From a virus: a DNA stretch of 21,942 bases. Shown here piece after piece: positions 1-21,942 of this stretch (position 1 is its first letter; every line of letters starts with the position of its first letter). The stretch is from positions 1 to 21,942 of the IMG/VR virus record IMGVR_UViG_3300046170_000005, one strand, 5' to 3'. The position numbers and the translations under genes were made by a program. A model generated the notes under the pieces. The model was not told the DNA's origin, made no database searches, and worked only from the letters and a program-made list of their open reading frames with translations.

Positions 1-15
1 TATTTCTTCACTCAT
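1..15 (-). CDS. 5' end of an unidentified gene (partial)
   Basis: Only the first five codons (MSEEI) lie in the window. The ATG at 15-13 overlaps the helicase stop TGA (14-12) as ATGA. A strong Shine-Dalgarno, AAGGAG, lies about 8 bases upstream, inside the end of the helicase gene. The overlap and ribosome site make a real start likely. It would be the next gene of the leftward replication operon. Nothing can be said about function. Confidence 0.6.
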
Positions 16-1506
16 ATTGATAACTCCTTCATGTTGTATGATTTGGCTCTTGCTATATTACAATGAATAATAAAACCCATTGTTTCTTTTGATGTAGCAA
101 TTGGAAATACTTTTTTACTGTGCGGAAAATGGCCAAATTTTCTTTTGAAAGTATGACTGGCCCAACCTTCTTTAAAACCTTTTTGTTTAGCATAATACAA
201 TAGTTCAGCATAAAACTTTTGTTTATCATCTGTCTTAACTTTCATTTTAGGAAGTTCAATTAATCTACCTTGTTGTATCAATATAGCCTGTTCTTTTTTG
301 GTAGGTATAAAACTACAGTTAGGACATTCTGGTTGTTCTTTAGAAGGTTTATAAACTGTATCACATTGAACACACGTAAATGGTTGTTTCTCAATTGGTT
401 CAATTTTCTTTTTTTCTTTTTCTTTAATTTTAGATACGGTCAATTGCCAATCTGGTACATCTTCTGGAAACCCATGCTCATATACACATCCAGAATGATC
501 TATGATAAGTGTATCTTTTTTATTTTCAGCAGGTCTTAATGCTCTACCAACCATTTGCAGATACATAGAATAAGATTTAGTGGGCCTTGCTATAATTACA
601 CATGATATTTTAGGTTGATCCCAACCTTCTGTTAGTACCATGCAATTAGATAAAACTTTAATTTTATCATCTTGTAAATCTTGTAATACTTTTTCACGTT
701 CTATTTCTGGCATCTCACCATCTATGTGACCCGCAGGAATACCATTTTGTTTAAATATATTTGTAATGTATTTAGAATGTTTGATAGACGTACCAAACAC
801 AACAGTAGGTCTATTCTCACCATATTTGATCCAATGAGTTACAATATCACCAACTAATTTAGGTGTATTCATTCTAGTGTCTAATGCTTTTTTTTCATAG
901 TCACCTGCCATGATACGAATGTTTTGTAAGTCTGGTATTGATGGGGCAACTATTCTATTAGGTACTAAGTAACCTTTTTCAGTTAGTTCTTTAATCGTAC
1001 CACAATTGACTAATTCCTGATAAATATTACCAAGACCACGCCCATCATTTCTACATGGTGTTGCAGTTAAACCAATTACCCATGCTTCTGGATATGTATT
1101 AATTAAATCTTGGAATGATTTAGATGTACTTCTGTGGGCCTCATCCAATATAATTACATCAGCTTGTGGTTTAACAAAATCATCATTGTCTTTTCTTGCT
1201 GAAAATGTTTGAACACTTGCTACCTGTACATCAGAATAAATACTACCAGACTTACCTGCCATAATAACTCCATGTTTAATTTCAAAGTCAGCAAGTTTTC
1301 TACTACATTGCATAACAAGTTCACGTCTGTGCGCCACAAACATTCCAAATCTATTATTTTTAACCAAGCCTTCCATCATAGAACAAGCAATAACTGTTTT
1401 ACCGCTACCTGTAGGGGCAACTAATAATATTCTTTTTTTACCTTCTCTAAAATGTTGTCGTATATCTTCAATTGCTTTTTTTTTGATAATCTCTCAATAA
1501 GTTCAT
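12..1506 (-). CDS. SF2 DNA helicase (DEAH-type, SSL2/type III restriction-like), frameshifted near its start
   Basis: ATP-dependent superfamily 2 helicase, probably acting with the primase encoded just upstream at the phage replication fork. The start is the ATG at 1506-1504, overlapping the primase stop as TAATG, with GGAGAAG about 6 bases upstream. It begins MNLLRDYQKK, a typical Q-motif. The frame then breaks in a run of nine A (minus strand, 1484-1476). With one A removed the protein is 497 aa: Walker A TGSGKT at 32-37, DEAH at 121-124, the motif VI arginine finger QMVGRALR in the second RecA domain, and a C-terminal zinc ribbon of two Cys pairs (378/381 and 394/397). Without the correction the longest open frame starts at 1379 and lacks the Q-motif and Walker A, so it could not be active. 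The break is either a sequencing or assembly insertion, transcriptional slippage on A9, or a real mutation. The fold assignment is secure; the exact substrate is not. Confidence 0.88.
1476..1484 (-). other. Homopolymer A9 at the helicase frameshift
   Basis: Nine A in the coding strand follow TAT-C. Eight would give Q-K-K-A-I-E-D in one frame with the Walker A region. Nine throws translation to TGA a few codons later. Runs like this are both slippage-prone and the commonest place for sequencing indels. Confidence 0.75.
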
Positions 1507-2324
1507 TAGTATCTTCTCCATATATCGTTTAGTTGAAACATAACTTCGTTTAAATTTTCTGGTGGTACACATGAGTTTGCAAATTCAATAGCTTCACCTT
1601 TTGCATAGTCGTAACTTTCACCACGTTTTTTTATAGCTATTAAAATTTTAACTAACTGTGCATGACGTTCACCTGCATTGATACCGTAACGAAGTGTGCC
1701 TGTGTATTTACCTTTATAAGTTGATGGTGTGTAATCCATCTTAATAGTTTTTTGCTCTGGCCTTTTTAATTCCAAACCTTCTTTAATTTCTTTCATAGTG
1801 TAAGGCATATCAGTTGTACATTGAATTATTTTTACAGGATATGGATTTTTTTTATGGTGATAAAAACCTGCAACTCTCATAATTCTAGGCAAATCTTTTA
1901 CAACAGGGTCAGAATTAAATTTAGATGCCAATGCTTGTTGATACAAAGTAAAACTTTCTAAAGGCATATCTTTTACTAACCAATAACAATGGTATTTTTT
2001 TGGCGAAGTATTTACAATTAGATTAGGTGGAATATTAAAACTATCTGGTAATGGTGTACCATCTAAATCTATAAACACAGCCCTAATCTTTTGTATGTTT
2101 TTAGTTGTACGACCAAGACCATTAGTTTCATTTACTGTAAAATATATACCCGCACCTTTACTGTTAAGTTCAGCCAATTCGTGAAAGTGTACTTTTATAC
2201 TTCCGTGCAATTGTTTTATTAATCTTTTGTTTAGGCCCTTATCATCAAATGTTTGGAATGAATGATGTTTACCAAAATAATCAAGAAACATACTGTAATG
2301 AGAATTTTCGTTAAAACTACTCAC
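1506..2324 (-). CDS. RepB-type (archaeo-eukaryotic-like) DNA primase
   Basis: 272-aa protein resembling the RepB-like AEP primases of phages and plasmids, which make primers at an origin. What is visible: a D-x-D metal pair in FIDLDG (D86, D88), the second catalytic patch SPKKYHCYW with S107 and H112, and the conserved DLPRIMRVAGFYHHK segment (144-158), which corresponds to the family's D-x-x-R-x-x-R-x-P-G region. It starts with GTG at 2324, overlapping the preceding stop TAG by eight bases, and its own stop overlaps the helicase ATG as TAATG. Primase and helicase are therefore probably translated together. No helicase domain is fused to it, unlike large D5-type primase-helicases; the neighbour supplies that. 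Naming beyond 'AEP/RepB-like primase' is inference. Confidence 0.82.
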   Translation of the reverse strand: MSSFNENSHYSMFLDYFGKHHSFQTFDDKGLNKRLIKQLHGSIKVHFHELAELNSKGAGIYFTVNETNGLGRTTKNIQKIRAVFIDLDGTPLPDSFNIPPNLIVNTSPKKYHCYWLVKDMPLESFTLYQQALASKFNSDPVVKDLPRIMRVAGFYHHKKNPYPVKIIQCTTDMPYTMKEIKEGLELKRPEQKTIKMDYTPSTYKGKYTGTLRYGINAGERHAQLVKILIAIKKRGESYDYAKGEAIEFANSCVPPENLNEVMFQLNDIWRRY

Positions 2325-2520
2325 AACGATAACCCAAAACTAAATAACCCAGTTTAGTATAATGACCTGCTCTCATATCATCAGTTTCTTCTCTGTATTC
2401 TAATTTTTTTAAAATAGCATTGCCATATTTAAAACAATCTACGTTTTCTTTTTTAGGCATTGTTATTTCAGTTAGATTGCAAGTAGCGCAAGTTAAAATA
2501 AAAAATATTATTTTTGTCAC
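2317..2520 (-). CDS. Small hypothetical protein with hydrophobic N-terminus
   Basis: 67-aa protein of unknown function. The start is placed at the GTG at 2520-2518 because it forms a GTGA overlap with the DUF1376 stop and has AGGAG 5 bases upstream. An upstream ATG in the same frame at 2550 would overlap the neighbour by 34 bases and is less likely. The N-terminus (KIIFFILTCATCN) is a short hydrophobic stretch with two Cys, like a signal peptide or lipoprotein-type leader. The rest is charged and ends GYLVLGYRCE. It sits between replication genes, where a secreted or membrane-anchored mini-protein is unexpected; a superinfection-exclusion or membrane-tethering role is possible but untested. 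Confidence 0.6.
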   Translation of the reverse strand: MTKIIFFILTCATCNLTEITMPKKENVDCFKYGNAILKKLEYREETDDMRAGHYTKLGYLVLGYRCE

Positions 2521-2912: not shown

Positions 2913-2942
2913 ACTATAAATTCCTTGAGTTTAGTTAATTTT

Positions 2943-2971
2943 GTTTTAAACCAAAAAGAAATGGGTGTCAA
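2943..2971 (-). promoter_or_regulatory. Sigma70-type promoter for the replication operon
   Basis: On the minus strand a perfect -35 TTGACA (2971-2966) is followed after 17 bases by TAAAAC (2948-2943) as -10. The predicted start near 2936 leaves a leader of about 24 bases carrying AAGGA before the DUF1376 ATG. The 11-bp dyad repeats begin about 75 bp upstream, a position suited to activation or to origin function. Confidence 0.6.
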
Positions 2972-3623: not shown

Positions 3624-3630
3624 GCATAAA

Positions 3631-3733: not shown

Positions 3734-4336
3734 ATGACAAGTATAATAGCAGGTAGTGGAGATGCACCACGTTATCCAAGTGTATCAGTTGGCGTACATA
3801 AAGCCAGATGTGTAAAGATCATTGATCTAGGTACACAAAAATCAGATTTTAACGGTGAGATTAGTTGGAAACGTCAAGTTCTAATTATCTTTGAAACACC
3901 AGAAGAACTGAATAGTGAAGGACAACCATTAACAATCAGTAAATTCTATACGTTATCATTACATGAGAAATCTAATCTTGGTAATGATTTAACATCATGG
4001 AGAGGTAGAGCATTTAGTGAAGCAGAAAAACAATCATTTGATATTTCTAAATTACTTGGTGTACCTTGTTTATTGAATGTTATGGATAAGAATGGGAAAC
4101 CAAGAATATCATCTATAATGCCAATGAAAAAAGGTGATCCAATTGCTGAACAAATTACTCAAGGAGTAGTGTTTAGTTTAGAGGATTTTCAAAATGGTAA
4201 AAAAGAAGTTTTTAATAATCTATCTGAAGGTATTAGAAACATTATTTTAAGATCAAAAGAGTTGGAAGGCATGAACCAAGATCAAGGTGATGAGGGTAAT
4301 GGTGCAAGTGTCGGTGATAGTCCAATCCCATTTTAA
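3734..4336 (+). CDS. Putative phage single-stranded DNA-binding protein
   Basis: 200-aa protein. It resembles a conserved phage family beginning 'M-T-x-I-x-x-G' followed by a beta-rich OB-like region; here GVHKARCVKIIDLGTQKS, KRQVLIIFETPEEL and SKFYTLSLHEKSNL are recognisable blocks. The C-terminus is acidic and Gly-rich and ends GDSPIPF, very like the acidic Pro-Phe tip by which SSB proteins recruit replication partners. It would coat single strands during replication or recombination. It is first in the rightward operon, with AAGGAC upstream, and its stop overlaps the nuclease ATG as TAATG. An SSB beside a RecB-like nuclease suggests a recombination or replication-repair pair. Family identity is by recall; the SSB role is inference from the tail and context. 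Confidence 0.65.
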   Translation: MTSIIAGSGDAPRYPSVSVGVHKARCVKIIDLGTQKSDFNGEISWKRQVLIIFETPEELNSEGQPLTISKFYTLSLHEKSNLGNDLTSWRGRAFSEAEKQSFDISKLLGVPCLLNVMDKNGKPRISSIMPMKKGDPIAEQITQGVVFSLEDFQNGKKEVFNNLSEGIRNIILRSKELEGMNQDQGDEGNGASVGDSPIPF

Positions 4337-5241
4337 TGATTATAACTAATAACTCAAACTTACCAAAAGTAATTGAACGGGCTGTAAAAAATGACCCCTA
4401 TGATAGTAGTGGGTCAGACATCTCTACTACCCGTTTGATTGCACCCCCTAGAATTAGGGTCTTGCAAATGAGAAATAATGATTTGATTAAAGAAGATGTG
4501 TCTGATCGTATATTTTCTTTATTGGGCCAATCAGTTCACCACATTATAGAACGAGCAAAAGTTGCTAGTGATATAGCTGAACGTAGATTGTACTATAAAG
4601 ATGATAACATCACTAACGGTTGGACATTATCGGGTGCTTTTGATTTGCTTACAGGTGACGGTAAACTTATAGATTTTAAAGTTACTTCAGCTTGGTCAGC
4701 ATTAGATGCTTTAACAAATGGTAAAATTGAATGGGAACAACAATTAAATGTTCTTGATTTCTTATGTCGTAAAAACCAAAAAGATTTAACTAAATACAAA
4801 AAAGAATTAAAAGTTAAATCATTGTCTATCATGGCTATACTACGAGATTGGTCTAAATTAAGAGTAATGCAATCAGACAACTATCCTAGAAAACAAGTTG
4901 TTATGATACCTATACGTAGGTGGTCAGATCAACAACAGGAAGACTATGTTAAAGCTAGAATAAAACTACACCAAGACGCAGAAAAGATGAAAGAACTACC
5001 TTTGTGTACAGCTAAAGAAAGATGGCGTAAAGAAGATCAGTTTGCTGTTATGAAGGATGGTAGAAAATCTGCTTGGCGTTTATTTCCTACAAAAGAACAA
5101 GCTAAACAATTTATCGTTGGTGAAAAAATGGTAGAAGGTAAAGGCTGTGCAATTGTAGAACGTAAAGGTGAAGATGTAAGATGTCAGCACTATTGTAGTG
5201 TCAATGAATTTTGCTCTCACTACATGGATGTATCATTTTAA
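4336..5241 (+). CDS. PD-(D/E)XK nuclease, RecB/Cas4-like, with Cys cluster
   Basis: 301-aa exonuclease-type protein. Motifs in order: H68/H69 with E72 (motif I, QSVHHIIERA), D103 (GAFDLL), D113-x-K115 in LIDFKVTSAW, and Q135/Q136 in WEQQLNVL (the Q motif). Near the C-terminus C224, C283, C287 and C293 are arranged like the 4Fe-4S cysteines of AddB/Cas4-type nucleases, although here all four lie C-terminal to the nuclease core. It likely processes DNA ends for recombination or degrades DNA, acting with the SSB-like protein. The ATG is coupled by TAATG to that gene and has no Shine-Dalgarno of its own. The nuclease fold is well supported; the iron-sulphur cluster is inferred from spacing only. 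Confidence 0.82.
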   Translation: MIITNNSNLPKVIERAVKNDPYDSSGSDISTTRLIAPPRIRVLQMRNNDLIKEDVSDRIFSLLGQSVHHIIERAKVASDIAERRLYYKDDNITNGWTLSGAFDLLTGDGKLIDFKVTSAWSALDALTNGKIEWEQQLNVLDFLCRKNQKDLTKYKKELKVKSLSIMAILRDWSKLRVMQSDNYPRKQVVMIPIRRWSDQQQEDYVKARIKLHQDAEKMKELPLCTAKERWRKEDQFAVMKDGRKSAWRLFPTKEQAKQFIVGEKMVEGKGCAIVERKGEDVRCQHYCSVNEFCSHYMDVSF

Positions 5242-6874: not shown

Positions 6875-7009
6875 ATGGCTAAAAAAGGTTTATACGCAAA
6901 CATCAATGCTAGAAAAAAAGCAGGTACATCTAGACCAAAATCTAAAAGTACAATTACTGCTAAAGCATACAGTAACATGAAGTCTGGGTTTAAGAAAAAA
7001 TCATCATAA
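6875..7009 (+). CDS. 44-aa basic conserved phage mini-protein
   Basis: Starts MAKKGLYANINARKKAGTSR and ends GFKKKSS; about a third of the residues are Lys or Arg. AGGAGA lies 5 bases ahead of the ATG (6866-6871), an excellent ribosome site. The stop overlaps the endolysin ATG as TAATG. Proteins beginning 'MAKKGLYANI' are widespread in marine phages. Their function is unknown; the charge suggests DNA or RNA binding or packaging. Confidence 0.75.
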   Translation: MAKKGLYANINARKKAGTSRPKSKSTITAKAYSNMKSGFKKKSS

Positions 7010-7440
7010 TGTATGAAGAACTAAAAGACCGTATTAAAGAACATGAGGGTTTTAGAAATGTTGTTTACAAAGATAGTCTAGGTTTTGCCACAATTGGGTA
7101 CGGTCATTTAGTCAAGGAAAATGATCCTTTTGTAGAAGGACATACATACTCACAAAAATTATTAAACGATTACTTTGAAATAGATTTTACTAATGCTGTA
7201 GTTGGTGCTGAAAAATTACTAGGTAATCAAGATATGAATTACAAAGCTAAATGTGTCATAATTGAGATGGTATTTCAATTGGGTATGACAGGTGTATCTA
7301 AATTTAAAAATACATTAAAAGCTGTTAAAAAAGAAGATTGGGATACTGCCGCAGATGAAATGTTAGATAGTGTTTGGGCCAAACAAACTCCAGAACGTGC
7401 TAACGAACTTTCCTCAACAATGAGAAGTTGCAAATATTAA
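7009..7440 (+). CDS. Endolysin, T4-type lysozyme (GH24)
   Basis: 143-aa muramidase that cuts the glycan backbone of peptidoglycan at lysis. The catalytic triad of T4 lysozyme is present with exact spacing: E13 (in EHEGFR), D22 (in YKDSLG) and T28 (in FATIGYGH); T4 has E11, D20, T26. The C-terminal lobe is recognisable (MVFQLGMTGVSKFKNTL). No signal peptide or signal-anchor is seen, so export needs a holin, fitting the membrane proteins just upstream. TAATG-coupled to the preceding gene. Confidence 0.92.
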   Translation: MYEELKDRIKEHEGFRNVVYKDSLGFATIGYGHLVKENDPFVEGHTYSQKLLNDYFEIDFTNAVVGAEKLLGNQDMNYKAKCVIIEMVFQLGMTGVSKFKNTLKAVKKEDWDTAADEMLDSVWAKQTPERANELSSTMRSCKY

Positions 7441-7462: not shown

Positions 7463-7648
7463 ATGTTAATCATAGAAGACGTAATTGTTAATTACGGAAA
7501 AAATGAAACTGTTGAAATAATTAATGATGTTCATATTTCAAATGGCATTGTTAAATTTATTGATCCTAAAGAACAACTTAAACAATTAGAAGAACAGATT
7601 GATGGTTCTCCTGCGGAGTTATATGAACAAAAGAATATTAGTGATTAG
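7463..7648 (+). CDS. 61-aa hypothetical protein
   Basis: Acidic small protein (MLIIEDVIVNYGKNETVEII at the start, later KEQLKQLEEQIDG). The first 35 residues look beta-rich, the rest helical. No family recognised. The start codon lacks a clear ribosome site and the gene overlaps the phosphoesterase by 26 bases, which lowers confidence. Position just after the endolysin and before an enzyme gene gives no further clue. Confidence 0.5.
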   Translation: MLIIEDVIVNYGKNETVEIINDVHISNGIVKFIDPKEQLKQLEEQIDGSPAELYEQKNISD

Positions 7649-8321
7649 TGATATGCACGTTCCTTACCATCATAAGGATAGCATAGAATTTTTAAGAGAA
7701 ATAAAAAAAGAATATAAACCAGACATGATTGTTAATATAGGTGATCTATTAGATTTCCATGCCATATCTATGCATGAACATAATCCAGATTTATTTAGCG
7801 CAGGGCATGAATTAAAAGAAGCTAGAAAATACATTAAAGAACTAGAAGATATATTTCCTAAAATGGTAGAAGTAGATAGTAACCACTCTAGTCTTGTTTA
7901 TAGACGTGCATTAAAGTTTGGTATGTCAAAAGAATTTCTAAAAGATTATGGTGATTTTCTTGGTACTAAAAAATGGGAATGGATTGATGATTTAACTTTA
8001 ACATTATCTAATGGTAAAAGATGTTTTTTTACTCATGGAAGATCAGCAGATGTATTAAAGGTATCACAAGCAATGGGTATGAGTTGTGTACAGGGCCATT
8101 ATCATACTAAGTTTCTTATCTCTTATTGGGCCAATCCAGATAATATATTTTTTGGTATGAATGTTGGTTGTATGATAGACCAGAAGAATATGGCTTTTGC
8201 TTATGCCAAAAATTTTAAAACTAGATTTATAATAGGTTGCGGAATGATTATAGATGGTATTCCAAGATTAATGCCTATGATCCTAGATGATAAAGGTAAT
8301 TGGATTAAGAAGTTGGTTTAA
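7623..8321 (+). CDS. Calcineurin-like metallophosphoesterase
   Basis: 232-aa two-metal phosphoesterase. All five motifs are visible: D10-x-H12 (SDMHVP), GDLLDF with D41, N87-H88 (VDSNHSS; the usual G-N-H-E is changed to S-N-H-S), H138 in THG, and GHYH 158-161. The substrate may be a phosphodiester in nucleic acid or a nucleotide; phage members are of unknown role. The start is set at the ATG at 7623, where the motif I strand begins and GGAG lies about 6 bases upstream; an earlier in-frame start at 7599 is possible. The loss of Glu in motif III is common in the superfamily. The stop codon overlaps that of the convergent fibre gene. Confidence 0.85.
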   Translation: MNKRILVISDMHVPYHHKDSIEFLREIKKEYKPDMIVNIGDLLDFHAISMHEHNPDLFSAGHELKEARKYIKELEDIFPKMVEVDSNHSSLVYRRALKFGMSKEFLKDYGDFLGTKKWEWIDDLTLTLSNGKRCFFTHGRSADVLKVSQAMGMSCVQGHYHTKFLISYWANPDNIFFGMNVGCMIDQKNMAFAYAKNFKTRFIIGCGMIIDGIPRLMPMILDDKGNWIKKLV

Positions 8322-9323
8322 CGAGCCGTACATGGTACGTTGTTAGTTCCAACTAGGGGTGCTGATGCAAATGCCATGTAGATGTATGTTGCACCACTTT
8401 CATTAATTATACTCCAATCATATCTAGGTTTAAAACCATTAGAAAGAATATCCATTCTATCCACATCAGTTTCAGCATTACTTAAATCTGCTTGAAAGAA
8501 TATTGATTTAGGATTGTAGGTATTAGTTTTAGTGTCCATTAAAAACCAACCATTACCTGAAGCACTAGATTTTTTAATTAAAAGCCAAGCAGGTTTAAAC
8601 CCTGTATAAACAAATGTTCCATCAGCATTTCCATTACCAACATAAGAACCAAACTTGCTATAACCAGTTTTCTCTGCGAAGCAGTAGGCAATTTGTGTTT
8701 CACCATTTGTATCATCTTTAGAAAAAACTGTAGATGTAGGAGCAGAATTACCACTATCTCCTTTAGTAGCAGTTGTATTTAAAAATAAATAATCCATACT
8801 TCCATCAATAGCTGTTGTGTAATACACCCAATCTGCAGCAGCAGTATATCTTTTAACTATTACCACTTTTGGTGCAACCCCTAAACCATGTCCAATAGTT
8901 CCTGACGAACCTGTTCCTGTCCATTTAACAATACTAAATCCACTTGTAGTATTAGCACTAACAGTTGAGGTTATGCTTCCATCTGTGTTTGATGAACCTG
9001 CACCATTTGCTTTCCAGTTCCATGATGCGTAAGTTCTAGTGTTTTCATTAATACTTCCATTTCCTAAAGCAAAGCCATCTGAGTTCCAACTTGTAATATT
9101 GTTTGAATTTGTTCCTTCAGCATCTGTACCATTAGGAAAAATATATTTTGTATATCCTCTAACTGCATCTGCAAGTCTATGACCTCCTGTTTCACTACGA
9201 ACTTTTACCCATGTCATATCTGGTTGATGACCTACTCCAGAGATAGTTTGTGTAGAACCATTACCTGTGTAAAGTTTAGTAGTCAAAATAATCTGTAGAT
9301 TTGTTGATAGTTGTGTATGCCAT
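8318..9323 (-). CDS. Fibre/adhesin protein (marine-phage DUF7483-like), frameshifted near its start
   Basis: Predicted receptor-binding or decoration protein. The true start appears to be the ATG at 9323-9321 (MAYTTINKSTDYFD), overlapping the preceding stop as TAATG. After GAT TAT TTT GAC an extra T near 9281 puts TAC then TAA (9278-9276) in frame. Removing it continues as D-T-K-L-Y-T-G-N-G, as in homologues I recall, giving 334 aa. Recognisable blocks: SGVGHQPDMTWVKVRS, HRLADAVRGYTKYIF, SITSTVSANTTSGFSIVKW and GHGLGVAPKVVIVK, repeated in a second half (YTGFKPAWLLIKKS). These beta-rich modules are typical of the fibre region of marine phages. It contains the only GCAGC sites of the window (8835-8842). 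Confidence 0.72.
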
Positions 9324-10697
9324 TATAAGTTTAATCCTTTTGTTGATAAAGCAGTATAGCCTGTTGGTACATCATATTCGAAAATTCCATTTCCACTTGC
9401 GTTAGTTCCTGCACTAGATACTGCTGTTGTTCCGAAGTAACCATTGCCATAATTAACAGACCATTTAGAATTTTCTGAACCTACTCCTATGTAGTAAAAT
9501 CTATCTGCATCTATATTTGTACTGTCTGGGTATGAAGCATTAAATGTTGTACTTTGAGAAGCAGAACCATTATTCCATACACCATTTTTAGCATACCAAA
9601 CTTTTTGGTTGTCTAAATCAACTGCCATTGCATAAATATCATCTGCACTTGGAGCTGAAAATATATTTGAAATTGAAATATTGCCACCACCATCTCTTAA
9701 ATTAACATCATAAATAGCTTGTGACCTTTGATTTACTGCATTAGTAGTTGCATCATATCCCCAAATATAGTTAGCTGTACTACCTACAGTTCCTTGATTA
9801 TTAGTGTCATATTCAGTATCACATAAACCTATCCACCATTTAGAAGCTGTACCAGATAATGCTTTAGCTTCAAAATACCATTTACCTTTATTAACAGCTA
9901 ATGTCGGTGGTGATGGTCTATGATACGCAATACCTGTTGTTGTGTTATTACCTTCACTTAAAGCATTTTGATTAGTTCCATAAGTAACTAATGGGTTCAT
10001 TGTAGCAAAAACATTGCTTGGATTATCTTCTGTTTTTGTAAGTGTACCTGCACCAACTGTAAAGTTATTACCTATTACCAGATTGGTCTGTAACACTATT
10101 ACCATCTTTTAAAATAAAGAAACCATTAGTTCCATAAGTACACTATGGAGAAGTTTTTATTTTCCATTCTCCAGTTGTGCTATCTGTTTCTCCAAAGTCT
10201 GATGCTGAATAAGAGTAACCATCACAAAAATGTATATGCGACATTAACCCATTAAAAATACCAGATGAGTTCCAAGTTTGTCTGCCTATGTTATGTTCAA
10301 CATTATGATTTAATTGAGCATCATAATTTAGTGATGGATTAGTTCTTGAATTAAAAACAGTTTCCTCTACTCCATTTATCCAAATTTTCATTCTGTCATT
10401 TGCTGTTGCGTTTGTACTATCCCAAGCAAAAACTAAATGATACCAAGCATTAAAATCTCTAAAAAGTCTTGAAGGTGTTAAATTTCCAACTGTTCCAGAA
10501 CTTGGTTTGTATTCTGTCCAAGATAATCTATAGTCACTTCCAAAAGTTATAGTACCTTCATTATCTCCAGATGTACCAGAAACTAACAAAGCATTATTAT
10601 TTCCTGTTCCTCTTTCAGAAAGTTTTACCCACATAGATAATGTAAATTTTTTTCTATTACCACTACCAAAAGTTCTTGTTAAATATGTACTAGGCAT
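9323..10697 (-). CDS. LamG/SPRY-like tail-fibre adhesin, broken by a stop and a frameshift
   Basis: Reads as one 457-aa protein in two open pieces. The N-terminal part (10697-10143) is a concanavalin A/LamG-type lectin domain: KFTLSMWVKL, WYHLVFAWDST, KIWINGVEE, HNIGRQ. The C-terminal part (10105-9323) is SPRY-like: GKWYFEAKAL, WWIGLCD, AVDLDNQKVWYAKNGVW, NYGNGYFGTT. Between them, TSP is followed by TAG (10145-10143) where homologues read S-V-T-Y-G-T-N-G; the DNA fits an inserted T followed soon by a lost A. Then YGTNGFFILKDGNSVTDQSG is open, and an extra G (10072-10071) gives AGG-TAA-TAA instead of AGT-AAT-AAC. Correcting it joins the halves exactly in frame. Probably a cell-surface glycan-binding fibre. 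Either sequence error or a decayed gene. Confidence 0.7.
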
Positions 10698-11422: not shown

Positions 11423-11432
11423 AGGATTTTAC

Positions 11433-11660
11433 CTATAACACTATTGTGTTAGCTTCATCTTCAGTTAATGCTTCTCCTGCAATTAACTTTGCTTTAGCAC
11501 TAGCTTTTAAATCTGCTTTTGCTTGTCTATCTGTTTCTTCTGCTTGTCGTCTAGCTTCAGAATTAGTTTCGTCTGTTTGTCTTTGAGTTTCTTCTTCAGC
11601 AGTTAAATCAAGTTCTTGTATTTCTCCTGTTTGAAGATTGTGTATTATTTTTTTAGTCAT
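11433..11660 (-). CDS. 75-aa helical fibre-associated protein
   Basis: Begins MTKKIIHNLQTGEIQELDLT, then a long Ala/Glu/Arg-rich helix with Q-T-D-E and R-Q-A-E repeats, and an ending of ALTEDEANTIVL. Small proteins of this shape sit between fibre genes in many marine podoviruses and may be chaperones or fibre-assembly proteins; the role is unproven. The ATG is coupled by TAATG to the preceding gene and has GGAG 8 bases upstream. Confidence 0.65.
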   Translation of the reverse strand: MTKKIIHNLQTGEIQELDLTAEEETQRQTDETNSEARRQAEETDRQAKADLKASAKAKLIAGEALTEDEANTIVL

Positions 11661-12526
11661 TATTTTTTTACTCCATATAGTGTAAATACTGAATTATGTA
11701 ATGCACCACTAGTCAAATAAAATTGAACTCCATCAACATTACCAGTATTGTCAAGGTGTCCTGCATTTTCATCATAAAATATATAATCTCCTGATGTCCC
11801 ACCTGAATTATCTCTACCCCAACTATGATTTTGAAAACCCATATATGAGTTTGTCCCCATTATAGTCATTTCAAAATAAGCCCAATATCCACTACGAACT
11901 CCCCATGAGTGCATAAGAGCATAATCTCTACCATCTGCATCACTATTTGCACTTTGTGTATTTTCACCGTTATCTCCTGCTCGTCTGTATAGGTGTGAAC
12001 CTGCATGTCTATAGTCACTAGAACCATTATAAGCAGAAGTGTTATTTAAAAATCTCATTCTTATTTGAGTATTTTCTGTATTTGGTTTTAACATAATAAT
12101 AAATTTGTATGCTCTATAAGTGCTATGGTCTATAAATTGAGCAAAATTATAAGAAGTTGCATTACTAGAAGATAAATCTACTCCTGCAATTTTTACAAAG
12201 TCAGATGATACTGTTCCCCAAGATGGATTTGCACCAGTACCACCAGTTTGTAATACTTGACCAGAAGTTCCTGCACCAAGTCTTTGTAATCCACTTCCAT
12301 CTCTGTAAAGTATATCGCCTTGTGTTGTTAATGTTGTTGCAATATCACCACCTTCTGCCATTACATTCCAGTAAGTAGCATTAGTTGGTAAATTACCAGT
12401 TGAAGCTAAAATACAAACATAAGATGATCCATTGTATGAAACAACGTCATCTACTGCATAAGCAGTACCACCTGCATAAGCACCTTGCCAATTGAATTTT
12501 ATTGAACCTAAATTTATTGTTGCCAT
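11660..12526 (-). CDS. Tail-fibre protein with N-terminal carbohydrate-binding module
   Basis: 288-aa protein. Residues 13-50 form a chitin-binding-type (CBM5/12-like) module: WQGAYAGGTAYAVDDVVSY followed by NGSSYVCILAST. A linker with QGDILYRDGSGLQRL and GTSGQVLQTGG is the common 'trimeric fibre tip connector' of phage fibres. The C-terminal 190 residues are Asn/Tyr/Gly-rich beta structure with no recognised family, presumably the receptor-binding head. The start has AAGGAGA 4-5 bases upstream. Confidence 0.75.
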   Translation of the reverse strand: MATINLGSIKFNWQGAYAGGTAYAVDDVVSYNGSSYVCILASTGNLPTNATYWNVMAEGGDIATTLTTQGDILYRDGSGLQRLGAGTSGQVLQTGGTGANPSWGTVSSDFVKIAGVDLSSSNATSYNFAQFIDHSTYRAYKFIIMLKPNTENTQIRMRFLNNTSAYNGSSDYRHAGSHLYRRAGDNGENTQSANSDADGRDYALMHSWGVRSGYWAYFEMTIMGTNSYMGFQNHSWGRDNSGGTSGDYIFYDENAGHLDNTGNVDGVQFYLTSGALHNSVFTLYGVKK

Positions 12527-12563
12527 ATGTTCTCCTTTTACCCTATTTTTATTCTATTATCAA

Positions 12564-14624
12564 TTATATTGTTGAAATTAAATTACCATTATTATCAATG
12601 CTAAAAACAAAACCAGATGCCGCAAATAATACATCATCAAATGAAGCATAAGTAGCCGCATCTATATTATCAGAACCACCATCTGTAGTAGTTACTATTA
12701 ACTCACCATTACTATTAACACTAAATCCATAAACTTCTGCACTACTAGCATTTCCTGCTACAAATGAACTGCCAGATGCGTTCCAAGTTAATACTTGACC
12801 ATCTGTAATACCAGCAGTTGATACATCAGTAGCATCATTAATACTAAAATTAGCTAAATTAAATGTTCCATATGCAATAACATCTACAATGTCAGTTCCA
12901 ACTGTACCAATTGCACTAGCAAAAACTATTGAATTACCAGATGTAACTGTAACATCAACAGCATTTACTTGTTTTACACCATTTAAATATACGTCAATGT
13001 AACCAGCATCATATGCCATAGTTTGACCATAATCATCAGCACCTGTTACAGTAGTAGTTGATGATGATATTGAATACGTATATCTACTAGCAGTACCATT
13101 TACACTTGACCCTGCCGCAGTCCACCCACTTGATGAGTAAACTTTCATAGTTTGTGATGTAGTATCAAAATAAAGATCACCAATATCTAATGCTGAACCA
13201 TCTGGGTCTTGTGTAGGTGCTGTAGCACTTGGGCCAAGATAGATATTTGCAAAAGCATTAATCTCTGCAAGGTTGTTTGCCGCAGTTGTAATTGAAGATA
13301 TATTAGTTCCAACATTTGTTACGTTAGTATCATTTGCCGCTACTAAATTTATATTTGTACTGTTTGCATTAACTGCATTTATATTTGTTGAATTTGAATT
13401 AACTGCACTAATTGCCGCACTTATTCCAGATACATTTGTAATTTCTGTGTCTATTCCAGCAGTTGTGTTTATATTCGCTATGTTAGTTGCAGTTGTGTTT
13501 ACATTAGCTATTGATCCAGCAACAGTTCCTATTGTGTTTGAACCAGATAAATCAGCCGCAACTGTATTTACATTTGCTTGGTCTGATGTTGATAATTGTA
13601 TTTGCCTCCAAGTAGTATTACCTAGATCATAAACTTTCATTACATCATCAGTAGTATTGAAATATAATGCACCGTCTGTTAGTGCATCACCGTCATTATC
13701 TACCGTAGGGTCAGATGCTTTAGCACCTAAAAATCTGTCATCAAAATTATCTAATGCCGCTTCAGCCGCCGCTTGAGCATTTTGGGCCGCAGTAGCACTA
13801 GCCGCAGATGCTGTAGCTTGTGTAGTTGAAATTCCTGCTTGAGTAGTTGCAGTAGTTGCAGATGTAGCCGCATTTGTTTCTGAAGTTGCCGCATTAGTTT
13901 CAGATGTAGCCGCCGCAGTTGCACTTGCCGCCGCCGCAGTAGCTGATTGTGTTGCAGAATAGGCATCTACTAATAAATCCCATTTAGCAACATCTGTATT
14001 AGATGAAATAGGTTGTGCGCCAGATGATGTGTGAGCAGTATTACATAAATAAATGTTATTGTTTGATGTGTCTTTTACAATATCTCTAGCAGAATAACTT
14101 GTAGCTGTAGCCCAATCTCCTTGATATGACCCTAATTCCTGCGATACAACTAACTCACCAGCACTATCAAATCCTAAAATTTTACCTGCTCTAGTATTTG
14201 CATCAACCGTAAATTCAGTTGAGGCCATAGTGTTTGTTCTTGATAGTTTAATTGCTCTATCTGCTTCTTCTTGAATTTCTTGTACTAATGATACTGATTT
14301 ATCAAATGCACCTTCTACTGTTTCTGCACTAAAAGGATCATTTTCTACTAAGTCTAATTCTTGAGTTTGTGTAGTTGAACGTCTAATAACTAATGTTTCA
14401 CTAGATAAAGGCGCAACAACCATAGTTACATTTCCACCACCTGCATCACCTGCACCGCTAACTGTGTAATCAGTTGATAAACTTTTTAATGTTTCAGTTC
14501 CAAGCGCTGATCTAACAAGAACTTGTATGTCAGCATCAGCATTTATTTTAAAAGTATATGGAAATACTGTTTGTGAATTATCACCAGAATAACTGTTTTT
14601 TATAATAGTAGTAGTAATTGTCAT
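12564..14624 (-). CDS. T7-like tail-fibre protein
   Basis: 686-aa fibre that likely attaches to the tail and carries host-binding segments. The N-terminus (about 1-130) matches the T7 gp17-type tail-attachment domain: NSYSGDNSQTVFPYTFKINA, LSTDYTVSGAGDAGG, LVIRRSTTQTQ, EGAFDKSVSLVQEI. A CBM-like module follows at 167-202 (WATATSYSARDIVKD). Residues 222-293 are Ala/Ser/Thr repeats, a predicted long trimeric coiled coil. Two related modules at 298-341 and 461-501 share 'LG-x-x-PT-D-DG-AL-GALYF-TT-MKVY'. Between them is an Asn/Thr heptad stretch (NINTTA-, NSTNIN-type repeats). The Ala-Ala codons are almost all GCG-GCN, unlike single Ala codons. Confidence 0.85.
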   Translation of the reverse strand: MTITTTIIKNSYSGDNSQTVFPYTFKINADADIQVLVRSALGTETLKSLSTDYTVSGAGDAGGGNVTMVVAPLSSETLVIRRSTTQTQELDLVENDPFSAETVEGAFDKSVSLVQEIQEEADRAIKLSRTNTMASTEFTVDANTRAGKILGFDSAGELVVSQELGSYQGDWATATSYSARDIVKDTSNNNIYLCNTAHTSSGAQPISSNTDVAKWDLLVDAYSATQSATAAAASATAAATSETNAATSETNAATSATTATTQAGISTTQATASAASATAAQNAQAAAEAALDNFDDRFLGAKASDPTVDNDGDALTDGALYFNTTDDVMKVYDLGNTTWRQIQLSTSDQANVNTVAADLSGSNTIGTVAGSIANVNTTATNIANINTTAGIDTEITNVSGISAAISAVNSNSTNINAVNANSTNINLVAANDTNVTNVGTNISSITTAANNLAEINAFANIYLGPSATAPTQDPDGSALDIGDLYFDTTSQTMKVYSSSGWTAAGSSVNGTASRYTYSISSSTTTVTGADDYGQTMAYDAGYIDVYLNGVKQVNAVDVTVTSGNSIVFASAIGTVGTDIVDVIAYGTFNLANFSINDATDVSTAGITDGQVLTWNASGSSFVAGNASSAEVYGFSVNSNGELIVTTTDGGSDNIDAATYASFDDVLFAASGFVFSIDNNGNLISTI

Positions 14625-14626: not shown

Positions 14627-17600
14627 TTATTCTTCTATTTTATCAGAATTTTCTTCTTTAATAAAGTTAATAGGATATGTATTATCAGTTTTTTCTATAA
14701 ACTCAACTAACTTCATAATCATAATTGCTTGTTTTTTACTGTCTGTTTCAGTTAAAAAATCTTGTAACAATACAGTTCCACCAGCCATTTGAGATAATCT
14801 GTCAATTAATAATTTATTAGTTTTTAAACTTTCACTTCTTGCTAATAATGCCATTTTATGTTTATTTGTTAATGGTTCACCTGTAGTTAAATTTACAATA
14901 GCTTCTTTAAAATCAAGTGTAACTTGAGCATTTTCTTTTTCGTATTGTTGTAATCCACCTTCAGAATTTTCCATATATCCTACTATTGGATTATTACCAA
15001 TTTTTACAAATCTATTAAGTATTCTACCTACTACTGGCATATCAAGCATTTCTTCTAATTCTGAAGATATTTCTTCAAAGTTATTGCTTTTAAATTTATA
15101 TAAACCTTGACCAGAATAAGTATTAAAGAACCATTTTAATAATTCTTTGTTTTTTCTAGCATCATCTGCTTTATCAGTTGTTTTATCAATTGCAGTTGTA
15201 CCTCTAAAATCATCATATGGAGTAGTACCATTCATCCAACCAATAACATCACCAAATAAACTAAATACTGGGTTCATAGAAGGTAAACCAGAACTACCTA
15301 AATAACCAAACAAATCAGCAGGTGTTTCAAATGTACCTGTCTTTCCATCATCACCAATACTCATTGCTTTGTATAAAAATCCATTAATTAATCTAGATGT
15401 TTCGTCTTGTGGTATTCTTAAATATACTGGTCTTCCATCTTGTGTTTCACCTAAAACAATTGGAATGTAATTTATTTTATCCCAATCAGATATACCGTAT
15501 TTATAAACCATACCTAACGAAGCACCAAATAATCCTACTTCCATCATTTTTTGTAAAATTTTAGGCATTACGTTATAAGCTATAAACTTACCACCAACTG
15601 ATGCAGGGTCTTCTCTAAACCTAGTTATATCTGCTCTCCAACCTTCTTTAAATGCATTAGAATATAAATATAAATTATTAGTAAATGCATTTAATCTACC
15701 TTGTCTTAAAAAGTTTGGTGATCCTACTTCCGATTGTATTCTTAACATCATTTCTTTATCATTCATTTTTAAATCACCTCTTTTTATTGCATCTCTTAAA
15801 TACATAGTTCCTGCAATTTTAGGTGTTCTTTCAAACATTCTAGCAAAGTTACCTAGTGTAGAAAATAAATGACCAAACGTATCATTCCAAAATTTATCAA
15901 ATCCTTTTTTCTTTTGCATATCACCAAGTAATCTTTCAAGCATATATGTGTCTGGATCAAGACCCTTCATTAATGCTTTACTACCTGCTTGTCCTCTATA
16001 TCCTTCATTCATAGAGATTAAAAAACCTTCACTTTCCATCCATCTAGTAAGTTCAGTACCATCTTTAAAAATAGATTGGTATGCAGGTTTAACTGCTTTA
16101 AAATAATATTTAAACAATGAGTTTTTACCCTTTACCAGCAATATCAATATATCTAGCATTAGGTAGTAGTTTAACTGATCTGTTTAAATCTCTAGCTAAG
16201 TTGATTGGCCAGAAAGCAGGATTATATTCTGTAAACATTTTTCTAAATACATCACCTGTTCCTGTCATAATTTTGTACATCATCATTGTACCGTTTGGAT
16301 TTTCTTTAAATGATTGTGCTACAAATTTATTAACGTGCCAATGTTGCATCTTACCATCTTTCATGTAACTAAATTGTTCCATGCCTTTAGCTGGTTTTTC
16401 TAATTTACCTTCTCCAATAAATTTAGGTTTGTAAATAACTCTATCTGGTCTATATGCTTCTCCAGATTTTTTACCATATGTTTCCATCCAATTTTTGTTT
16501 TCTTTTAACCATTTAACAGTTAAAGCCATTGTTCTATGTCTTTTGGCTTCAACCATTAACAACATATCTTTTTCAAGTGTTGCATTAAATACATTCATAA
16601 TGTCATCAAATGTACCTTTTGATCCTTTTAAAAATCTTGTAGCGCTTGAGTTTGGCCCGTATTTTTCTATACGTTCTAACAAATATTTTCTTACGTTAAA
16701 TGTAACGTATTCTTTATTGTTTTCTAATTTAGCAATTAGTTCTTTGTCATACATTCCACTTTCTTTTAATTCTGGAATAACCATTTCTTGTCTAACTTTA
16801 TAAAATTCATTTGTTAGTTCAAATAGTTGTGGATGTAATTTTACATAATAATCATATATTTCTTTTGCAGTTCTATTACCTAATACTTTTGCTAAGTCTG
16901 GATTGACTTTCATAATACCTAGTGAATTAACTAATTTGTTTCTTTGTGAACTTTCAGCTATGTTTCTTAAAAATAACATAGTACCAATATCAATACTGTT
17001 GTATCCCAATTCTTCTGCTGGTTTTACAACTTTACGCATCATATCATCTGTGTATCTTTTTAATTTAGCATGACGGTATCTGTAGTTTTCAATTGACCAG
17101 TTTAATTCTTTTGCTAATGGACTATGCCATCTATCACTACCAGTTCCTCTAAATCTTCTATATATCCAGAAAAAGTTATCAATTGCTTCAGTACCAAGAA
17201 CATCAGCTAAATCTGGTTTGTAATCTTTTTCTATTCTTTTAATTGTAGCTTCATTAGTTTCTCTAAACATATTACCAATGTCAGATACTACTTTACTTAA
17301 TCTTTTATCTGTTCCAGATTTTAAATCTATTTGTATTCTTTCCCAGTTTGCTCTTACTTCTGGTCTAGCATCCATATAATGCATCCACATTTCCCATGTT
17401 CTAGGTGCATTGTTTTTAACCCATTGTGGTCTTAGCATAAATGCCATCATAAAATCTGCCATTAGTTCTCTAGGGCCATCTCTATATTCTGTGTATTTTT
17501 GAGATGCGGCTCTATCAAAAGGTTTCCATTTTGCAGATAAATTTTTAAGTTCTGTAGTAATCCATTCTTTATTAACTAATCCTCTTTCTTTAATTATTCT

Positions 17601-20600
17601 TTCAAATTTATCTTTAAAGATTTTGTATGCTTCATTAGTCAATCTGCTGTCACTAGGTTTACCATTAATTTTATCTGCAATAGCTTTCATATGATGTGAC
17701 ATTAGACCCTTCATTGCATCTTTAACTACTAATTTTTTAACTTCAGCAGGTAGTTTTACAAATGCATTATAAAAGTCTGGATTAATCTTTTCTCTAGCAG
17801 ATGCATCATTAAATATTTTAAGTATAGTATCTGGTGTAATTTCTAACTGTTTAATTTCTGCGTTAGTTTCTTTTTCTTTAGCTTTTGCTTCTTTTATAGC
17901 GGCACTTTTTATAGCTTCTATTTCTTTAGCACTTAATGGTTTTGCACCTTCATTTTTACCATCAATCCATTTATTCATATAACCTTTTAAAGCGGCTATA
18001 GAACCTAATATATTACCTCTTGATAATGTAGCATTTGGTAAATAATCAATTAAATGTCCTAATTCATGTGCAAACGTCATTAAAAATTGTTCTGGGTTTT
18101 TTTGTAATGCTTCGTTGATAACTATTCTAGGTGATTTCTTTCCTTTAAATTGGAAATAACCATTTAGACCTGTTGGTAAGTTATTTAGTTCTGGTGATTT
18201 TTTAACAAATGCTTTGTATAATTCTACAAGATCAATCATATCTAAACCTCTTGATGAATTAAATAGACCCTTCCATTGAGCCGCATTATTTGCGTAGTCT
18301 GCTGGTAAATTCTTTTCTTGTGTAAATATATCTCTAGGTATTCCCCAATTATCACCATCTTTACTACTGTTTACTCTATCAAAATACACACCATCTTTTG
18401 TTTTAAAAGTATCAAAATAATTAGTAGCTTGTGCATCTATTTCACCATTAATTTTTTCACCTTTTATAGTTGCAAGTATTTTACCGCTTTCTGGATGCAA
18501 CATCATAATTACTTGTTTTGCATCACTACCCATCATATCAGCAGTTTTTATTGTTCCTTTATCATTAAATCTAATTAATTGTTCATAAGCTGATCTTGGT
18601 ATAGCAACATTTTCATTACCTACTCTAACAATTAATTGTTCAACATTACCTTTTAAACCAAAAATTACTTCAACTTTTTTAGCAGTAGAAGATAATCCAT
18701 TACGTTCTTTGTTAATTAATTCTTTAGCATTTTGGTATTCTGTTTTTAATTCTTTATTTTCTTTTAATCGTTTTGTTATTTCTGGATAAAATTTAGATTG
18801 AACAGTAATTGTTTCATTAGCAATTGTTTTACCATCTTTTGTAATAATTTTTATAGCACTACCTGTATCTCTAACAGCTAAGTCAGCATTGCTTTTAAAT
18901 GTACTTTCTGTATAAATATTTTGTTTATTTTTTGTAACCTCAACAACATTAACATTAAATTCACCATTAGATTTTCTTTCAACAAATGATGTATCTTTAG
19001 CAAAATTTATATTAATTTTGTCACCTTCTATTTTTATTTCAACAAGTTTGTTTGGTGCTTTTCTAACTTCACTTTCTAATACTGGTATTTTAACACCATT
19101 TGTTTTTTCAATTATAACAACTTTTTCATTACCAATTGTTTCTTTACCAATTACTCTACCAACTTCTGTAGAAGATGTAGATACATTAACAATTTCATTG
19201 TTTTTAAATTTTGGTGGAGGTAGTAATTTAATATTAGATTGTTTTTCTAATCCTTCTACAACTGTTTTAGCACCTTGTTCATAAAGAGTTGGCATTTGAC
19301 CATTTTCTATTTGATGTCTAACAGTTACATCTTTTTCCATGTCTTTAATTACATCTCTAGGATGTCTGCCGTATTCAGTATAAATGTCTTTAAACATCTT
19401 CATACCTCGTATTGATCCATGTATTCCAAAAACCAAGACCGTAGCATGAGCAAAATCTCTCATTGTAGGTACATGACCTTCTAATGCCGCACCTAATGTA
19501 GTCATCACAGCTATTTCTGATGAAAGTCTAGCTGTTGTACTACCTGTTAATGCTTTAACTTTTGCACCAACACCAAATGTAGCACCACCAATTACTGCTG
19601 TTTTACCAGCAACTATTGCTGTTTTTTTATCCATGTAATGACTTAAAAATTCTGGAAATGATCCTACAAAATTATCTTCTATTGCTCTCATATAAGATGA
19701 TCTAATTACTTCTGGTAATGCAAAACCACCAGCACCACATATAATAGGTAACGCAGGTGCGGCTGTACCTGCACTTCCAACTAAAGCTGTACCACCTGCC
19801 GCAAAACAACCTGCCGCCATAAATGGTAAATCATTTACTAACGTAACAGCAGATGCAACAATATCTTTATCAAATCTTTGTTCTTGATACATAAATATTC
19901 TTTGTATTGCTTCTTTAGGATCAGCGTTAGGATCATCAATAAATACTTGATAATATCTATCTAGCATACCATTTACAGATTGCTCGTAACCATTTGTAAA
20001 TACGTTGTAATAACCTTTACCACCAAAAGCATTTAATACTTTATCACCAACATTTGCAGGTAATTTTTCTAATGCTTTAGTTACAATATTATCATTACCC
20101 CAATAAGCTAGTTGTGCAGTTTCATAATCATATTGATCTGTACCAAATTTATCAAAATATTTATCAGTTCTGTCTTTTAATTCTTGATTATCAACAAGTC
20201 TGTATTCTTGCCCTACACCTGCTTCTATGTCTTCTACTTTTTCATAATCAGCATGATGATATTCAATGTATAATTTTTTCATTGCATCAACATCACCATT
20301 AGCAATTGCTTTAATTAATTGATCTGAACCAGCACGATTAAACTTTTCACTTTTAGGTATTTCTAAAAAATTAGCTAATGCTAATGCTTTTTGTTCATCT
20401 GGTGATAATCTTGTAGGGTCTTCATGTTTAAATGCTTCTGTTACCCAATAAGGTAATTCATAATCTTTATTTACTTTTCTATTTACGTTTATAAATCTAT
20501 TTAAAGCAGTTCTAAAACCGCTTTTTCTAAATTGAAATAAACCACCAGCACTACCATCTGCATTATAAATATTTCTATTATTACTTTCTAAGGCTGAAAC

Positions 20601-21380
20601 AAATGACATGAACTCATTAAGATACATAATTTGTAAATCATTAAATTCATAATTTTGTTTAGCATATTCTAACATTGTTTTTGAATTTGCACCTGTAGAA
20701 AAAGCTGTATGTAATACATTAACAGGTTCGTTAGCTTTTCTTTCATCTTCAGCTTGTTCGTAATTTGTATCAAAAAGATATCTACCTGTTTCTTTGTTAA
20801 AACCAAAATTACCTGCAATAGCATCTTTAGCTTGTGCGTTTTCTAGTAATTTAACTTGCTCATCATTTAATGCACTTTCTGCTAAAGTTAAATCAACACC
20901 ACCTTTAAATTTTTCTTTTTCATATGCTATGTTTGGATAATATTTTTCCATCCAATTATCTATAAATCCTACTCTACCATTATCATCTTCTTTAAATAAT
21001 TTATATGCTTCATCTATTTTATTAAGAATTTTAGCTTGATCTTTATTTTTTAATAAATCAAATGTAGTATTTTTAAGATTATATTTACCGTCAGATGTTT
21101 TGTTAGATTTAATAGTGTCAGCATTTTCATCATCTTGTAATTTCATTAATGATGTTTTTTTACCTAAAGGCATTTGATTTTCTGTAATAGCAGTTGTATC
21201 TTCCTGCATATCAGTATCTAATAATGAATTAGATTTAATAGGTACTATACCGTAACTATTGTATATTTCTTTTTTATTAAATCCTGCTTTTTCTAAAAGA
21301 GGTACTTGGGTATCAACATACGATTTTATTGTGTCTGTATCAAACCCAGCTTGTGATAATTGTAAAGCTGTAATTTTCAT
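14627..21380 (-). CDS. Giant ejected internal virion protein: transglycosylase, zinc peptidase, polyvalent-type C-terminus (frameshifted)
   Basis: Predicted 2250-aa protein that would be injected with the DNA. As read it is two frames: 21380-16125 (1751 aa) and a continuation to 14627. The first ends AGKG then TAA; with one G removed from GGG (16130-16128) it continues A-G-K-G-K-N-S-L-F-K without a break, and the total is in frame. Domains: lytic-transglycosylase-like region about 255-350 with catalytic candidate E265 (SALESNN) and ADGSAGGLFQF; hydrophobic stretch about 510-580 (FMAAGCFAAGG onward) for membrane channel formation; charged middle; HELGH zinc-binding motif at 1105-1109 (gluzincin-like peptidase); then large helical parts including 'FTEYNPAFWPINLARDLNRS', which resembles a polyvalent-protein associated domain (LPD38-type). 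T7 gp16 is the functional analogue. Domain names beyond the two enzyme motifs are by recall. Confidence 0.78.
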
Positions 21381-21382
21381 AG

Positions 21383-21942
21383 TTATTCAAAGTCTGGCAT
21401 TATAAACAAATCAGATATATCTAATGTTTCAACATTTTGTCCAGTAATAACACTAGGTAATCCATCTGTTCTCTTTATTAATTTTTTAGCTCGTTTTAAA
21501 TAAGTAATAACATCTTCACCTTCATTTCTTGGAGGCATAACAAGATTAGCATTACTTGGTGTTTTACCTACAAAATATTCGTTAGGCATAATATAAAAAG
21601 ATTGATCTGTAGCTGTTGGGCCAACAATACCTTTAATTTTGTTTTGTAGTTCATTTAATCTTTCATCACTTATAGTACCTTTATAAGTTTCAATTAAATC
21701 ACCTAAAATATAATTTGGATGTCTTCTATTGACTAGCATATTTTCATATGTAAATCCTTTACGTTCACCTTCAGCAAGTAATCTATACATATTATTCATA
21801 GCATTATATGCTTCTTGGGTCATTTTTCCACTATCTAATGCACTTAATAAAGCACCTGTTCTTTCTTCTGGTGGTAATTGTTGTAAACTATTTAACATTC
21901 CTAACACACCTTCATCAGCACCTATTTCTTTCATCAACATAG
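21383..21942 (-). CDS. Virion protein, C-terminal part (5' end outside window)
   Basis: At least 185 aa, open to the edge, so the first ATG visible (21940) need not be the start. Mostly helical and charged with LNSLQQLPPEERTGALLSAL and a YKGTISDERLNELQNKIKG segment, ending LDISDLFIMPDFE. No family recognised. Its position just upstream of the giant ejected protein, with only a 2-base gap, is where podoviruses encode another internal core or ejection protein. That role is inference from order. Confidence 0.6.
   Translation of the reverse strand, partial: MLMKEIGADEGVLGMLNSLQQLPPEERTGALLSALDSGKMTQEAYNAMNNMYRLLAEGERKGFTYENMLVNRRHPNYILGDLIETYKGTISDERLNELQNKIKGIVGPTATDQSFYIMPNEYFVGKTPSNANLVMPPRNEGEDVITYLKRAKKLIKRTDGLPSVITGQNVETLDISDLFIMPDFE

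Follow-up and report, generated by a model that had tools for sequence, protein, structure and literature searches.

The window analyzed here is an entire virus fragment of 21,942 nucleotides (IMG/VR record IMGVR_UViG_3300046170_000005, positions 1–21942), and it is free of the word GANTC (N, any base) on both strands. By its sequence similarities, the window is a 21.9-kb pelagiphage fragment: Pelagibacter phages make up 32 of the 33 records with DNA matches to it in the phage collection, and the closest isolate at the protein level is EXVC032P Baldr, a phage cultured on HTCC1062, with 69% identity in the helicase and 35% in the open reading frame (ORF) at 14627–16159. SAR11 is an abundant ocean bacterium, and its phages are themselves counted among Earth's most abundant viruses. 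We propose that the absence of GANTC is probably the result of restriction-site avoidance imposed by a type II enzyme.

An exact count on the plus strand returned none of the four forms (GAATC 0, GATTC 0, GACTC 0, GAGTC 0); as the set is its own reverse complement, this count covers both strands, and the total absence claimed by a sequence-only reading made by eye is borne out. Base composition predicts 63 sites, a dinucleotide model 47, and a maximal-order Markov model 26.4. Codon-preserving shuffles (n = 1000; 27 ORFs, 21,150 bases of coding sequence (CDS)) gave 30.8 ± 3.8 sites with a minimum of 19, and none of the 1000 reached 0, so that the absence also withstands the shuffled null that had been proposed as its check. 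Codon choice, to which the same reading had appealed, carries the mark of the loss: serine following a GAN codon (Asp or Glu) is encoded by AGY in 30 of 30 cases and never by TCN, versus 295 TCN and 125 AGY (125/420) elsewhere. Words differing from GANTC by one letter are retained at 0.68–1.52 of expectation in the window and one 35.2-kb sister contig, while all four centre bases of GANTC itself are lost. Further words are lost against the codon null (19,155 CDS bases for these words): CASTG (0 versus 11), TCGA (1 versus 13), AAGCTT (0 versus 7), and GCWGC (2 versus 27).

The purge is shared across the window's lineage, and the related phages to which the sequence-only reading had pointed for comparison show that the trait is not special to the window. 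Eight contigs that are 98–99% identical in the ORF at 14627–16159 contain 0 to 3 GANTC in each available stretch, and three long window-like contigs among them, read whole (38.2, 37.1, and 35.2 kb), contain 4, 1, and 0, versus approximately 83, 82, and 76 expected; L215 and L217 duplicate the contigs of L007 and L008 and do not count as separate samples. Among helicase relatives, 53 of 80 loci were counted, leaving aside L228, L267, L268, L270, L271, and L285 (partial helicase) and loci below 59% identity. Those with 97–100% helicase identity had no GANTC in seven of the eight counted and a single site in the remaining one. When the GANTC sites of L226 (four) and L227 (eight) were mapped onto the window lineage, only two were returned, both non-synonymous and in poorly matching stretches. 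In a tree built from 55 helicase sequences, at least six changes are needed to account for the purged state at a cut-off of 0.15, a count that includes threshold noise, as L230 and L231 have identical helicases and fall on opposite sides of the cut. This pattern agrees with the depletion following pelagiphage phylogeny that is described in the available text of Seong et al. 2022 (PMC9516812). Two helicase relatives outside the window clade, L247 and L269, have G+C contents of 0.48 and 0.44 and are nearly GANTC-free (1/20 and 2/36, observed/expected). A clean swap of GANTC for CTNAG was considered and rejected: CTNAG is partly reduced in the window subclade, and the sisters L223–L225 lack, or nearly lack, both words.

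Fourteen named pelagiphages were counted, thirteen whole and HTVC019P over 40 of its 42 kb. GANTC is almost gone from HTVC028P (3/130, observed/expected), HTVC031P (3/90), HTVC011P (1/99), HTVC121P (3/110), and HTVC019P (6 versus 73 expected, coding part), and is partly lost from Eyrgjafa (14/102). The remaining eight, namely Baldr, HTVC024P, Greip, Skadi-5, HTVC010P, Bylgja, HTVC202P, and Hodr, retain it at 0.49–0.88 of expectation. The phages were picked mainly through matches to the window, so the 5 of 14 that are purged give no estimate of frequency, and the four controls used below were picked by hand. One and the same host, HTCC1062, is listed both for phages that have GANTC and for phages that lack it.

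GANTC is one of many words missing from these genomes. An all-word test covered every word of 4, 5, or 6 bases expected at least 8 times, excluded words holding a shorter purged word, and scored a word as purged at or below 6% of expectation; words were classed as listed or unlisted by reference to the REBASE table of Biopython, in which 69 of the 512 classes of 5-mer are recognition sites. Purged 5-mers (listed/unlisted) numbered 4/0 in the window (P = 1e-4), 11/2 in Baldr (P = 4e-9), 9/1 in HTVC121P (P = 3e-8), 9/3 in HTVC202P, 7/0 in Hodr, 6/2 in HTVC011P, 5/1 in Skadi-5 and in Eyrgjafa, 4/1 in HTVC031P and in HTVC028P, 3/1 in HTVC024P and in HTVC010P, 1/2 in Greip, and 1/1 in Bylgja, the pattern being weak in these last two. 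The OM43 phage MEP301 had 0/0, plus two listed 6-mers. Unlisted 4-mers (GCCC, ACGG, AGGG) were likewise purged in five phages.

Judged against the codon null, the purged words (listed/unlisted) were 4/1 in the window and 10/2, 11/1, and 5/0 in the three window-like contigs. Among the named pelagiphages the figures were 16/4 for Baldr, 9/4 for HTVC024P, 5/4 for Greip, 12/4 for Skadi-5, 10/6 for HTVC010P, 16/5 for HTVC028P, 6/1 for HTVC031P, 14/4 for HTVC011P, 22/3 for HTVC121P, 15/1 for HTVC019P, 9/2 for Eyrgjafa, 3/1 for Bylgja, 14/4 for HTVC202P, and 10/1 for Hodr; the controls gave 0/0 (MEP301), 3/1 (cyanophage P-SSP7), 8/1 (roseophage CRP-1, 40 of 54 kb), and 7/1 (T7). This test admits palindromic 6-mers only, which are mostly listed sites, and so favors the listed class; its P values were not used, and the all-word test is free of that bias. 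The 14 named pelagiphages have each lost or nearly lost 4–25 words (median 16), mostly known type II sites and in sets that differ by phage. Their median exceeds all four controls (0, 4, 8, and 9), with which the lowest pelagiphages (4, 7, and 9) overlap.

Several side observations accompany these counts. Where GCWGC is purged, GCSGC stands well above expectation (Baldr, 44 versus 6; window, 29 versus 3), as though alanine codons had been driven toward S at that position. Purged words that recur outside the REBASE list across 15 records (CAGTC in 5, ACGG in 5, CCTCC in 4, GCCC in 4, CAGCC in 3, and CCAGC in 3) are candidates for unlisted restriction specificities. HTVC011P is strongly purged despite encoding an ArdC-type anti-restriction protein (L017:559–1545). 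GGATG/CATCC is purged in five pelagiphages (L017, L018, L019, L021, and L327), and in Pelagibacter, according to the accessible text of PMC12570018, there is a prophage that has many GGATG sites and a GGATG-type methylase; losing the word and carrying the methylase may both be responses to a single enzyme.

On the host side, type II restriction–modification (R-M) genes were sought in 297 genomes of the SAR11 family to which G002 belongs (Pelagibacteraceae bacterium AG-349-L17, reached through L025). The 5-methylcytosine (m5C) methylase family, the methylase half of type II systems, matched in 67 genomes at E ≤ 0.001 and in 55 over the cut-off, with 50 of the 297, about a sixth, at E 1e-38 or better. 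We read thirty of these loci and submitted one neighbor from each of 20 to Pfam, and some again to PADLOC. Nucleases adjoining the methylases were of the Eco47II type (L170), the Bsp6I type (L175; found in 5/297 genomes), and the TdeIII type (L179); HNH nucleases lie beside others (L181, L185, and L187, the last 58% identical to L185), PADLOC assigned REase_II at L162 and L164 and weakly at L166, and a BstXI-type enzyme adjoins another methylase at L153. Mixed assemblies could import foreign genes into such a set; in G030:C1 and G170:C1 the R-M genes share a contig with ccrM. Type II R-M genes do exist in the SAR11 family; the restriction activity of their products is putative.

Many methylase neighbors remain unnamed: NCBIfam named 1 of 10, an alanine dehydrogenase, and PADLOC named 3 of 10 in one set and 5 of 10 in another, the latter set also holding the window phosphoesterase, which stayed unnamed. 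Neighbors other than restriction endonucleases included an ADP-ribosylglycohydrolase (L160), an alanine dehydrogenase (L163), an AIPR protein (L172), an MrfA-type zinc-binding domain (L178), an N6/N4 methylase (L182), a protein of glutamyl-tRNA synthetase type (L181), and proteins of elongation-factor type (L301, L304). Strong D12 methylases (E 1e-30 or better) occurred in 7/297 genomes; no restriction endonuclease was recognized among six neighbors from four of those seven loci, one of the six being a second methylase.

Whether the likely host carries ccrM, which the sequence-only reading had left to later searches, is answered by the near-universal presence of the family: PF01555 was over the cut-off in 269 of the 297 genomes, and the RAMA domain of CcrM was found in 136 of 157 (135 with one match, one with two, and 21 with none). 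GcrA was present in all 15 SAR11 genomes searched. The ccrM neighborhood is conserved across 20 loci read in 19 genomes, save for one contig end and one locus missing one gene. A second, R-M-type CcrM-like methylase was considered and rejected: only G042 (1/157) has two RAMA matches, both in the same core gene order, and it is probably a mixed assembly. The chromosomes themselves were sampled in two SAR11 genomes (G016 and G030; L332–L351; 200 kb each), where the 16 words or word classes tested all lie at 0.28 to 2.25 of expectation; host chromosomes therefore do not lack the words that the phages have purged. The GANTC shortage of these two genomes is limited to GAWTC, with GASTC normal at 1.13 and 0.94.

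Avoidance of restriction by a type II enzyme is supported by the completeness of the purge, by its specificity for the word, and by its imprint on codon choice, amid other missing words that match known restriction specificities. The loss goes beyond codon and protein constraints, neighboring words are kept, and R-M genes occur in the host family. The probable course is that phages of the window lineage carrying GANTC would have been cut in some SAR11 hosts over many infections, either by one type II enzyme for GANTC or by two enzymes jointly covering GAWTC and GASTC, and that every site would have been removed by changes, largely synonymous codon changes. Hosts of the window lineage would then possess a GANTC-cutting enzyme, with cutting as the selective agent.

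Several points weigh against this proposal. None of the SAR11 genomes yielded a GANTC-cutting enzyme, although, as no reference sequence for one was used, this is no evidence of absence; it is the main gap. No sporadic gene was found beside ccrM in the 20 loci retrieved from 19 genomes. None of the six Autographiviridae pelagiphages examined (L013, L017–L020, and L327) contains GATC, yet no DpnII-type restriction endonuclease was over the cut-off in any of the 297 genomes (one weak match), and such an enzyme was rejected as the cause of that purge. The Bsp6I- and Eco47II-type enzymes presumably recognize GCNGC and GGNCC, of which the window has lost the W-centred forms only. The extent of purging is not unique, since CRP-1 (9 words) and T7 (8) lie within the pelagiphage range. 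GANTC in the two SAR11 genomes stands at 0.51 and 0.44 of dinucleotide expectation, and GAWTC at 0.32 and 0.28, both lowest of the words tested, so part of the phage depletion may be a host-like bias. According to the portions of PMC12570018 available, a Pelagibacter genome has one orphan GANTC methylase, and no cognate restriction enzyme was found in a Pelagibacter isolate, which weighs against a general SAR11 restriction defense. Moreover, at least some of the phage DNA synthesized in SAR11 should be methylated, and hence protected, by CcrM. How a GANTC enzyme could act in a CcrM-bearing host is a puzzle, because host methylation should shield phage DNA too, unless replication outruns methylation.

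One tentative solution, which we regard as unlikely, is that solitary GANTC-cutting enzymes (HinfI-, TfiI-, or PleI-like), lacking a methylase of their own and shielded by CcrM, exist in SAR11 and other alphaproteobacteria; fast-replicating phage DNA would outrun CcrM and be cut, and phages would respond by losing GANTC or bringing their own GANTC methylase. If so, CcrM would be retained partly as an antidote. GANTC methylases are often encoded by viruses of Alphaproteobacteria, as stated in the accessible text of PMC7139368, and such virus-borne methylases fit a cost of unmethylated GANTC. Among the pelagiphages, PF01555 had no match in 17 phage records (13 pelagiphages, MEP301, and three window-like contigs; HTVC019P left out), and a phage-encoded GANTC methylase was rejected as the explanation for the pelagiphages that keep the word. 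Annotated "methylases" of Greip and Skadi-5, and an HTVC024P gene at a like place, matched no methylase family in Pfam.

The sequence-only reading had offered selection by a host restriction or methylation system, or escape from CcrM/GcrA. The other purged restriction words favor its restriction half; the second half, read here as methylated or hemimethylated phage GANTC titrating or drawing in the cell-cycle machinery of the host, is improbable. The host has the parts, with ccrM and GcrA as widespread as described, and GANTC is methylated in Pelagibacter according to the available text of PMC9516812. With CcrM/GcrA as the agent, however, most pelagiphages should avoid GANTC, as should phages of ccrM-bearing hosts generally, yet 8 of 14 retain it; nor does this account explain the other purged words, which have no link to CcrM. 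The centre bases are also not affected alike. CcrM recognizes GANTC irrespective of its centre base, but Baldr has lost GASTC (0 versus 13 expected; lowest shuffle 5) and kept GAWTC (48 versus 54), and Skadi-5 does likewise (GASTC 0 versus 12, lowest shuffle 4; GAWTC 33 versus 47), a pattern that an enzyme blind to N cannot produce. Bylgja shows the reverse in part (GAWTC 19 versus 61; GASTC 39 versus 26), a bias that SAR11 itself carries.

A phage-borne nuclease that cuts GANTC in host or rival DNA, the phage protecting itself by lacking the site, is very improbable. Genes of Baldr and Greip are annotated as HNH or PD-(D/E)XK nucleases, and the lack of PF01555 methylases in the 17 records fits such self-protection; against this, the number of words missing from each phage would call for many nucleases, and the sole named nuclease-like ORF in the window matches exonucleases. 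Composition or codon bias common to SAR11, by which low G+C and codon usage alone would make GANTC rare, has in its favor the host shortage given above (GANTC 0.44–0.51 of dinucleotide expectation, GAWTC about 0.3). It is refuted as a full explanation, and hardly credible as such: the two SAR11 genomes still hold 16–38 GANTC per 20 kb, the codon-preserving shuffles never fell below 19, and Baldr, of similar G+C, retains 50 sites; a partial share may remain. An artefact of library preparation or assembly, conceivable as the window and its closest relatives are contigs assembled from metagenomes, is refuted by the cultured HTVC028P, HTVC031P, HTVC011P, and HTVC121P, which are alike in having 1–3 sites versus 90–130 expected, and its probability is negligible.

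The window's DNA helicase ORF, used for the tree, lies at 12–1379 (minus strand) and is followed by a primase-like ORF (1506–2324, minus; phrog_10514, E 7.6e-19), the exonuclease-like ORF (4336–5241, plus; phrog_2139, E 3.4e-43), an endolysin-like ORF (7009–7440, plus; phrog_7, E 6.2e-21, and the tail lysozyme phrog_13211, E 1.6e-24), and a metallophosphoesterase ORF (7599–8321, plus; phrog_221, E 5e-66). Tail-fibre region ORFs (8318–14624, minus) carry DNA-level matches to many pelagiphages. The ORF at 14627–16159 (minus) has no PHROG family and, from its position, probably encodes a virion protein; its Baldr relative (20915–22366) lies within one long CDS annotated as hypothetical. The 1751-residue ORF at 16125–21380 (minus) is the longest GANTC-free ORF. 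These last two ORFs overlap, their Baldr counterpart is a single long CDS (15422–22411), and contig relatives align to the first from its residue 10 or 11; the arrangement suggests a split gene or a frameshift within the overlap. In the Baldr and Hodr records (L010 and L022; OQ414636 and OQ414635), the locus tags bear each other's names.

The purge pattern suggests that type II enzymes of many kinds exert pressure on pelagiphages, and from the set of words purged in a phage it may be possible to read which restriction enzymes its hosts carried; the GANTC question in pelagiphages thereby becomes testable. Neither multi-word purging in pelagiphages nor SAR11 R-M systems were found in a literature search by titles and abstract openings that covered few subscription journals and preprints. 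GANTC avoidance in pelagiphages is itself already published: the available text of Seong et al. reports that roughly half of 33 pelagiphages, clustered by phylogeny, and the NP1 provirus are depleted, offers restriction as one possibility, and describes eight Pelagibacterales genomes without CRISPR and R-M genes, SAR11 R-M systems being previously unreported. Those phages resemble the window in word and host group. That text treats GANTC alone in phages, with no SAR11 R-M, whereas what is added here is that GANTC is one word within a broad, lineage-specific purge of type II sites, and that genomes of the SAR11 family carry type II R-M genes. Rusinov et al. 2018 (PMC6286503) likewise described double-stranded DNA phages that have lost all or nearly all of their orthodox type II sites; as far as the accessible text goes, that work studied the sites of host-encoded R-M systems, whereas here the GANTC enzyme is missing, and its main text contains neither "Pelagibacter" nor "GANTC". 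The control T7 displays the same kind of trait (GATC 5 versus 120; CCAGG 2 versus 51), having lost 8 tested words compared with 4 to 25 (median 16) in the 14 pelagiphages, each with a different set.

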